64,000 nt of DNA. It comes from Actinomycetota bacterium. GTDB taxonomy: Bacteria > Actinomycetota > Actinomycetes > Nanopelagicales > Nanopelagicaceae. Both the position numbers and the translations under genes were made by a program. Below the pieces are notes generated by a model. It had not been told where the DNA came from, did not search any database, and saw only the letters and a program-made list of their open reading frames with translations. The stretch spans positions 248,001-312,000 of the forward strand of contig BGON01000001.1 in the NCBI GenBank assembly GCA_003569265.1, written 5' to 3'. Positions 58,304-60,207 of the stretch are shown here, in pieces; position 1 is the stretch's first letter, and the number at the start of each line of letters is the position of its first letter.

Positions 58304-59011
58304 ATGAATAAACCAGCGCCCATTGTTCTAGCTGTTGATACCAATGATTTGGACGTTGCCAAGCAATGGGTAACTGCAACAGATGGGGTCATATCAGTAG
58401 TTAAGTTGGGCTTAGAATTTTATACAACTTTCGGTAACGAAGGAATTAGAGCCATCACTGATAATTGCGGTACAGATATTTTCCTTGATTTAAAGTTGCA
58501 CGATATTCCACACACAGTTGCAGGGGCTGCACGTGCCGTCTCAACCTTGCGACCTAAGTTTCTAACGGTGCATGCAGCAGGTGGAAGTGCAATGGTTCAG
58601 GCAGCAGTAGATGCAATGCCTGCAACTCACATTACTGGTGTGACCATTCTGACTTCTCTATCTGAAAAAGATGTCGCGGATATTGGATTTAGATCTCACG
58701 CTTTAGATTCTGCTGTTGGTTTGGCAAAGATTGCGATCTCAGGTGGAGCACGGGCAATCGTCTGTTCACCTCTTGAAATCTTGGCGATTCGCCAAAATCT
58801 TGGTGCTGACATAACCATCATCACACCAGGCGTTCGTCCAGCCGATTCTGCAGGCGATGATGACCAAGCACGAACAATGACGCCGCGTGAAGCTATCGAT
58901 CGCGGAGCAAACTATGTCGTTATTGGCCGTCCGATCACGCAAAGTTTTGCAAATGGTGCTCAAGCCATGCGTGAGCGAGCAATAGAGCTTGCTGAGCAGA
59001 TTCTCAATTAA
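58304..59011 (+). CDS. pyrF: Orotidine 5'-phosphate decarboxylase
   Basis: A 235-residue type I enzyme. The catalytic Lys-Asp array is DIFLDLKLHDIPHTV; the phosphate-binding end reads ITPGVRPADSAGDDDQARTMTPREAIDRGANYVVIGRPIT. It makes UMP, the effector sensed by PyrR at the start of the operon. Many Actinomycetota have a longer type 2 PyrF; this one is the short bacterial type. Confidence 0.95.
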   Translation: MNKPAPIVLAVDTNDLDVAKQWVTATDGVISVVKLGLEFYTTFGNEGIRAITDNCGTDIFLDLKLHDIPHTVAGAARAVSTLRPKFLTVHAAGGSAMVQAAVDAMPATHITGVTILTSLSEKDVADIGFRSHALDSAVGLAKIAISGGARAIVCSPLEILAIRQNLGADITIITPGVRPADSAGDDDQARTMTPREAIDRGANYVVIGRPITQSFANGAQAMRERAIELAEQILN

Positions 59012-59024
59012 CTTAACATGCAGT

Positions 59025-59030
59025 TAGGGT
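59025..59030 (+). promoter_or_regulatory. Candidate -10 box (leaderless) for the mIHF-gmk gene
   Basis: TAGGGT lies exactly six bases before the ATG at 59037, so the fusion gene is probably transcribed independently of the pyr operon as a leaderless mRNA. Confidence 0.5.
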
Positions 59031-59036
59031 TAGTGC

Positions 59037-59909
59037 ATGGGAGCACCTCCGATACTGACCCCGCAGCAACGCGCTGATGCTTTAGCCAAGGCAGCAACTT
59101 CCCGAAAGCGACGTGCGGAGGTTAAGTCGAAAATCAAATCGGGTGAGTACACCATTGATACTGTTTTAGAGCTAGCGCAGAAAGATGATGCTGTAGCTAA
59201 GATGCGAGTGCGAGAACTATTGGAAGCCCTCTCTGGTGTTGGAAAAGTTCGAGCGCAGAGCCTTATGGAGAGATTAAATATCTCACCCACCCGTAGAATT
59301 CAGGGACTTGGTCGTCATCAAATTAAGGAACTGCGTAGCGAATTTATGAAGAGTACACATGCGGTCCGTCCAGGGAAACTTATCGTTCTCTCTGGCCCAG
59401 GGGGAGTAGGCAAAAGTACAGTTGCTGCACTTCTGCGCAAGTCTGGAGATTTCTGGGTCAGTGTCTCGGCAACAACGAGACAACCTCGAAACAATGAACT
59501 TAACGGAATCGATTATTTCTTTATTTCAAATGAGGAGTTCGATCGCAGAATTAAAGAGGATGGGTTCTTAGAGTGGGCGAAGTTTGCTGGAAATCGTTAT
59601 GGCACACCTAGTGTTGAAGTGCAGGATGCACTTTTGCGTGGTGAGAATGTATTGCTTGAGATTGAAATCGACGGTGCTAAGCAAGTTAAAGCACATCTGC
59701 CACAAGCAATTCTCGTATTTCTAGAGCCGCCATCATGGGAGGAGTTAGTAGCTCGTCTTGAAGGACGGGGAACTGATGATCCAGAGAGAAGGGCTCAGCG
59801 GTTGCAGTTGGCCCAAGAAGAGCTTGCTGCAGCCTCATTTTTCGATCATGTCATCGTAAATGACGCCGTAGAGCGGGTCGTTGCACAACTGGTAGCATTG
59901 GCCTCTTGA
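59037..59909 (+). CDS. gmk: Fusion of actinobacterial IHF (mIHF) and guanylate kinase
   Basis: One uninterrupted frame of 290 residues. Residues 1-103 are an actinobacterial integration host factor: [56 protein letters not shown] and [18 protein letters not shown] (helix-two-turn-helix DNA binding). Residues 112-290 are a complete guanylate kinase: P-loop GPGGVGKST (120-128), [19 protein letters not shown] for GMP, and [18 protein letters not shown]. In most relatives these are two adjacent genes. An internal ATG at 59346 (Met104) could also start a separate Gmk; AAGGAA lies 15 bases before it, too far to be convincing. rpoZ follows. Confidence 0.9.
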
Positions 59910-59958: not shown

Positions 59959-60207
59959 ATGGATGGCATTACAAATCCACCTATTGATGAACTTCTAGAC
60001 AAGAGCGGCTCTAAGTACAGTTTAGTTTTGTATGCAGCTAAGCGCGCTCGTCAGATCAATGCCTATTACTCACAGCTAGGTGAAGGTCTCCTGGAGTATG
60101 TCGGACCGCTAGTTGAGACACATGTTCATGAGAAGCCATTATCAATCGCACTTCGCGAGATAAATGAAGGCTTACTCACGATTGAAAATCTAGAACCAAC
60201 AGCTTAA
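59959..60207 (+). CDS. rpoZ: RNA polymerase omega subunit
   Basis: An 82-residue protein with [34 protein letters not shown], the omega signature, and [18 protein letters not shown] at the C-terminus. It stabilises the beta' subunit. A TAGATT at 59938-59943 and GAGCGGGG before the ATG may serve as promoter and ribosome-binding site. gmk-rpoZ-coaBC order is widely conserved. Confidence 0.94.

Follow-up and report, generated by a model that had tools for sequence, protein, structure and literature searches.

Known IHF proteins and guanylate kinases

The closest described relatives of the protein considered here are the actinobacterial IHF proteins, sIHF from Streptomyces and mIHF from Mycobacterium, and the bacterial guanylate kinases (Gmk). 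In published work, mIHF is free and about 105 residues long (PMC6155035, PMC3724605), and its gene precedes gmk and rpoZ (PMC6155035). IHF is reported to be very abundant and essential in Mycobacterium tuberculosis (PMC6155035), and in Streptomyces it ranks among the most abundant proteins that bind DNA in the nucleoid (PMC3784963). Deletion of mihF in M. tuberculosis was polar on the genes that follow and required gmk and rpoZ in trans (PMC6155035), which shows an operon link in a species where the genes are split. In M. smegmatis, msIHF-EGFP at the native locus is reported to co-localize with the chromosome marker HupB (PMC10028186), so a bulky partner need not abolish the association of IHF with DNA.

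The window, which is the whole stretch of 64,000 nucleotides that was analysed, has these two proteins joined in one gene. Its IHF part shares the domain of sIHF and mIHF above the curated cut-off as well as the fold of sIHF (6bek), and like the mIHF gene it precedes Gmk and rpoZ. It is therefore a member of the IHF family as a domain, but no stop codon separates it from Gmk, and instead of a free protein of about 105 residues it is the front half of a kinase. The Gmk part passes the equivalog cut-off and shares fold and P-loop with bacterial Gmk (e.g., 1znw); however, bacterial Gmk starts a few residues before its first strand, whereas a DNA-binding domain precedes the kinase in the fusion. 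Also among the sequence and fold matches are the animal proteins MAGUK and LRGUK, which resemble the fusion in having a guanylate kinase domain within a multidomain protein, but these are eukaryotic, have different partner domains, and imply no common origin with the fusion. The kinase is mostly inactive in MAGUKs. No paper on an IHF-Gmk fusion, its spread, or its repeated origin was found in the open-licence literature, so while the domains belong to known families, the description of the fusion seems to be new. The sequences themselves are presumably not, as we take it that databases very likely list these fusions as long guanylate kinases.

The fused gene in the window

A single open frame at 59037-59909 on the forward strand, which also carries all features given below, has an ATG start and 290 codons and is free of stops through the junction. 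The IHF domain, with an H2TH fold, covers residues 1-103 (59037-59345); residues 5-103 score 125.3 bits against NCBIfam actino_IHF (NF041260; curated cut-off 60) and 91.5 bits against Pfam H2TH_5 (PF22525; cut-off 27, E 3.4e-26), and a structural model matches 6bek. The NCBI model NF041260 is typed “equivalog_domain,” and our guess is that this type was chosen because curators already knew such fusions. The guanylate kinase domain, residues 113-290 plus the stop codon (59373-59909), scores 218.1 bits over residues 113-288 against NCBIfam guanyl_kin (TIGR03263; equivalog cut-off 160.45), is also above the Pfam Guanylate_kin cut-off, and matches 1znw in the model. The stretch between the domains is about 10 residues long. 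It holds an internal ATG (Met104, 59346-59348), which was assessed by codon comparison across loci as a candidate independent start for Gmk, and the junction proper (residues 105-112, 59349-59372), placed by low model confidence and by the spacing between the GLG and P-loop motifs. The upstream neighbour is pyrF, for orotidine 5'-phosphate decarboxylase (58304-59011; PF00215, E 1.1e-39), and the downstream neighbour is rpoZ, for RNA polymerase omega (59959-60207; TIGR00690, E 1e-22).

An earlier note on this DNA had described one in-frame fusion of IHF and Gmk, whose genes are normally adjacent and separate. The domain scores and the full-length frame without a stop agree with the first part of this description, and split loci of relatives, which have the two genes as neighbours, agree with the second. 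Its wording that the domains are joined “without a linker” is nearly right, with only a short gap in the model between the last IHF helix, ending at residue 107, and the first strand of Gmk, starting at 115.

With 641,603 bases in 3 contigs and a completeness of 41.7%, the genome that the window comes from is incomplete, and the fused gene is the only Gmk match in it. An incomplete genome might suggest an assembly or sequencing error that deleted a stop codon, but the same full-length stop-free frame is present in more than 100 other assemblies from the window genus and family, including 13 single-contig genomes of the genus in which copy number was examined as well, and a stop-free fusion is found in cultured, named species as well. 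The recurrence of the frame in so many independent assemblies rules out an artefact for all practical purposes, and with it the missing stop or frameshift at the junction that the earlier note had asked about.

A -10-like box of the kind expected for a leaderless-type start, TAGGGT, was found by consensus match at 59025-59030, ending 6 nt 5' of the start codon. Among the 53 fused loci of the window genus, which are related to one another, 52 have TANNNT within nucleotides -17 to -4, mostly as TAGATT and likewise by consensus match, and none has an SD-like motif before the start codon. This is in line with leaderless-type transcription of the fused gene in the window genus and supports the promoter type proposed in the earlier note. 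The TANNNT rule fails elsewhere (7 of 25 loci in the other fused genera of the family, 3 of 19 in family f36). A cTAGATTT-like box lies directly 5' of the start, between pyrF and the fused gene (59020-59037 in the window, and in the same place in loci L003-L054), and would mark a genus-specific promoter of leaderless type.

Distribution of fused and split genes

The window family, f1, belongs to a one-family order and has genomes of about 1.2-2.2 Mb. Of 296 genomes searched at order level, 273 have a match, all from f1 among the matches listed; the 20 listed genomes with no match are 54-83% complete, and all 108 genomes with at least 90% completeness and at most 5% contamination have one. By representative loci, the genes are fused in 11 of the 17 genera of f1 (g1, g25-g28, g30-g32, g35, g37, and g39) and split in six (g29, g33, g34, g36, g38, and g40), with a single genome behind each of g26, g28, g35, g37, and g38. 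The metagenome bin Umea3 (L215) is placed within the fused part of f1 on trees.

A class-wide search of 394 genomes extended the stop-free fusions to family f36 and, within family f34, to genus g103, and found no further ones beyond these and f1 among the matches listed. In a phylum sample of 149 genomes, no stop-free fusion besides the window's own was among the matches listed; class and phylum genomes with one match only (e.g., G353 and G533) were resolved in part. Family f36 is Microbacteriaceae, since its locus L111 has 96% identity to Cryobacterium flavum over 305 residues. All 19 f36 loci fetched from the class-wide sample are fused, and in a twentieth genome (G451) IHF and the initial portion of Gmk share an open frame before the contig breaks off within the Gmk domain. 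Genus g103, from the third family, has the fusion in both of its two genomes.

In a scan of named collections, the best 80 of 462 relatives included 32 fused and 48 split loci, shares that are not frequencies, as the relatives were ranked by likeness to a fused Microbacteriaceae query. The fused loci comprise 29 with Microbacteriaceae names and 3 metagenome bins (L160, L177, and L215); none of the Microbacteriaceae-named loci among these 80 is split (29 of 29 fused). The split loci are from Arthrobacter, Rothia, Cellulomonas, Brevibacterium, Nocardioides, Streptomyces, Mycobacterium, and others. The f36 loci (19), the named loci (29), and bin L160 together form the 49 rows called Microbacteriaceae-type below. 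Duplicates (L001 and L124) and loci cut by contig ends (L064, L083, and L084) were left out of the counts, and no IHF was found in the examined stretch of L065, L077, L080, and L140. The survey of domain architecture across actinobacteria that the earlier note had proposed finds the fusion in most f1 genera, in the sampled Microbacteriaceae, and in f34/g103.

As a separate observation, IHF seems to have been lost in several actinobacterial lineages. When 13 single-match or related genomes were tested for IHF, none was found in 12, the thirteenth being G451 from f36. The 12 genomes without H2TH_5 are 70-100% complete and come from families f5, f34, f39, f6, and f31 (G040, G326, G374, G357, G467, G497, G513, G550, G564, G423, G041, and G334). 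Eight of these were also searched for Gmk, and six have it above the cut-off. G041 (97% complete) and G334 (87%) have neither IHF nor Gmk by these models, which reflects either gaps or a replaced guanylate kinase.

Origins of the fusion

Quick trees, with SH-aLRT as their sole measure of support, were made for the Gmk domain alone and for IHF and Gmk combined (91 rows, 49 of them fused, hand-picked for spread across genera). Fusion state changes at least five times on these trees, and three changes are forced by well-supported branches alone. Placing all fused rows in one clade costs 114.6 log units and is rejected by the AU test (p=0.00044), as is one clade of the f1 and Microbacteriaceae fusions (110.6 log units, p=6e-5). 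Because a single clade of all fusions is rejected, the IHF-Gmk merger happened at least twice. The placement of the f34/g103 lineage shifts between trees, and its fusion is perhaps an independent third origin. For the f1 fusions alone, the AU test does not reject a single clade (p=0.30). The split genera g34 and g40 nest among fused f1 genera with modest supports (83-89), so there may have been fissions or repeated fusions within f1. Genus g32 (L061, L063, and L103) has 38-39 residues between GLG and the P-loop, compared with 24-29 in other f1 genera, and groups with split genus g40 on the trees; its fusion is possibly separate in origin.

The split loci suggest how the merger could occur. In 4 of 19 split f1 loci (L055, L057, L058, and L060) both genes are in frame with a single stop between them, and several others have an ATGA overlap of the IHF and Gmk genes. 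In L057 and L058, both from g40, the IHF stop TAG is immediately followed by the in-frame ATG of gmk, an arrangement that is one substitution short of fusion or else a recent fission. The 48 split loci from the best 80 of 462 relatives include 18 that are in frame with one stop, in a ranking that favours in-frame cases. As one substitution in such a stop would create a fusion, these pairs would offer an easy route to it.

Integrity of the two domains

All 32 near-complete genomes that were searched (29 fused, 3 split) have exactly one H2TH_5 match and one Gmk above cut-off, so the fusion is the only source of IHF and the only source of Gmk in the 29 fused genomes. HU, another nucleoid protein, is present in all 23 genomes tested. 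The IHF residues R23, R26, K30, G69, R87, G90, and G92 are all present in the window, and each is kept in at least 81 of 84 split rows, at least 47 of 49 Microbacteriaceae-type rows, and at least 34 of 36 fused f1 rows. R87, G90, and G92 belong to the conserved RRIQGLG motif (residues 86-92, 59292-59312), which we take to contact DNA; they are kept in 84, 84, and 84 of the 84 split rows, in 47, 49, and 49 of the 49 Microbacteriaceae-type rows, and in 35, 36, and 36 of the 36 rows of the fused f1 subset. R23, R26, and K30 are each found in 49 of 49 Microbacteriaceae-type rows. Q95 is likewise kept, and R86 is replaced by K in 48 of 49 Microbacteriaceae-type rows.

In the kinase, the P-loop (GPGGVGKS, residues 120-127, 59394-59417) is intact, as the earlier note had read it: G120, P121, V124, G125, and K126 are invariant in 27 aligned fusions. 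The same is true of S142, S144, R148, R151, E154, Y160, E179, Y188, and T190, among which are residues of the GMP site. That the fusion phosphorylates GMP is likely, as it is the sole Gmk in near-complete relatives.

An AlphaFold model of the fusion has a mean pLDDT of 93.8 and a pTM of 0.67. Residues 101-110 (mean pLDDT 67) are the sole ten-residue block below 70, with all others above 85; one weak patch together with this pTM is as would be expected for two rigid domains and a loose joint. Residues 16-104 of the model match sIHF bound to DNA (6bek) with Z 16.6 and rmsd 0.9 over 89 residues, and 4itq with Z 15.9, while the match to guanylate kinase 1znw has Z 26.1 and rmsd 2.0 over 179 residues.

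The H2TH_5 score is 43-51 bits in seven Microbacteriaceae fusion genomes, compared with 109, 118, and 65 (the last in G076) in three split f1 genomes. Judged against two of those three, the lower scores suggest that IHF function may have changed in the Microbacteriaceae fusions. For pairs with a Gmk distance of 0.1-1.0, the median ratio of IHF to Gmk distance is 2.00 in Microbacteriaceae-type fusions, 2.56 in split Micrococcaceae, 1.37 in the window genus, 1.58 in fused and 1.46 in split f1, and 0.98 in other split lineages. As the groups differ in depth and kind, these ratios neither demonstrate fusion-specific decay of IHF nor rule out modest decay.

One protein or two

The cell may make Gmk separately as well, or even chiefly so, if translation starts inside the frame near the junction or the protein is cut there. 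No segment of the model is less ordered than the junction. Of the 53 loci of the window genus, 31 have ATG at the position of Met104, as the window does; none of 26 loci in the other fused f1 genera (25 loci and bin L215) has it, nor do more than 1 of 49 Microbacteriaceae-type rows, and no SD-like motif precedes the ATG of the window. Some in-frame ATG, GTG, or TTG does occur at the junction in 46 of the 53 genus loci and 25 of the 26 loci from other fused f1 genera, but in places that shift between genera, and such a codon is absent from the segment linking the IHF motif to the kinase in 32 of 49 Microbacteriaceae-type fusions. A junction start codon follows an SD-like motif in 7 of 53 genus loci and 11 of 25 loci from other f1 genera (4 of 4 in g25, 3 of 4 in g31), but in none of 19 f36 loci. 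A conserved internal start was thus searched for and not found, while shifting possible starts are common in f1. Since Met104 is not conserved and most Microbacteriaceae-type fusions have no start codon there, separate initiation of Gmk is not conserved among the fusions, although it may occur in part of the window family. As an account of the fusion, a separate Gmk is improbable, and the suggestion in the earlier note that Gmk is made independently from Met104 is weakened, with other shifting starts still available in most of f1.

Coupling, streamlining, and the preferred reading

The reading we consider probable is a constitutive two-domain protein that arose by stop loss and was kept with no need for coupling between its parts. 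One gene would give one two-domain protein. Its N-terminal domain, predicted to be the only actinobacterial IHF of the cell, would bend DNA, and its C-terminal domain, predicted to be the only guanylate kinase, would convert GMP to GDP, with the domains folding independently on either side of a short flexible junction. The stop codon between adjacent genes would have been lost, the same event occurring independently in Microbacteriaceae and perhaps also in the third lineage, and the fusion would have been retained because the cell needs both domains and makes them together. Several points can be held against this. Proteolysis or internal initiation could give two proteins after all. The fusion forces equal amounts of IHF and Gmk, which is wasteful unless useful, given how abundant free IHF is in M. 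tuberculosis and Streptomyces. The fusion has also arisen repeatedly and been retained for long, which hints at some benefit not explained by this account.

Such a benefit could be functional coupling, in which tethering to the nucleoid, or a kinase that senses GMP, GDP, or ppGpp, alters DNA binding or brings the supply of GDP and GTP close to transcription, with repeated fixation of the fusion by selection. More than one origin by AU tests would suit this, as would a fused state in all sampled members of a family with ordinary genome size (Microbacteriaceae), a junction that is short and bounded (24-39 residues from GLG to the P-loop in 131 fusions), and a next gene downstream that encodes an RNA polymerase subunit. 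On the other hand, the predicted joint is loose, with a pTM of just 0.67, and the nesting of split g34 and g40 among fused f1 genera means that the fusion may be dispensable there, although a single clade of f1 fusions is not rejected. In-frame split pairs with a single stop are frequent, in a ranking that favours them, so fusion would be easy by chance, and since split genomes also keep the genes adjacent, proximity alone is no signal of coupling. On balance coupling is unlikely, though the least unlikely of the alternatives. A more specific version, that a metabolite-responsive nucleoid protein was built more than once in which GMP, GDP, or ppGpp bound by the kinase alters DNA binding by IHF, is more doubtful still; if true, the guanine nucleotide state would directly shape chromosome structure and transcription.

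Genome streamlining, which the earlier note had offered as a possible cause, does not hold as a general one: the fusion is found throughout the sampled Microbacteriaceae, where the 20 sampled f36 genomes are 2.8-4.3 Mb, and six f1 genera with small genomes have split genes.

Significance of the fusion

In the sampled Microbacteriaceae and in most f1 genera, a nucleoid protein that is essential in M. tuberculosis exists only within a metabolic enzyme. Unless a separate Gmk is also made, the fusion would fix the ratio of IHF to Gmk activity, and it would bring the kinase to DNA. A merger of repeated origin and relatives with split genes make these bacteria a natural experiment on whether gene neighbours fuse by accident or because joining helps, and because the merger also arose in an easily cultured family, the purpose of the fusion can be tested in the laboratory. 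For Microbacteriaceae, a long guanylate kinase is the place to find the IHF of the cell.
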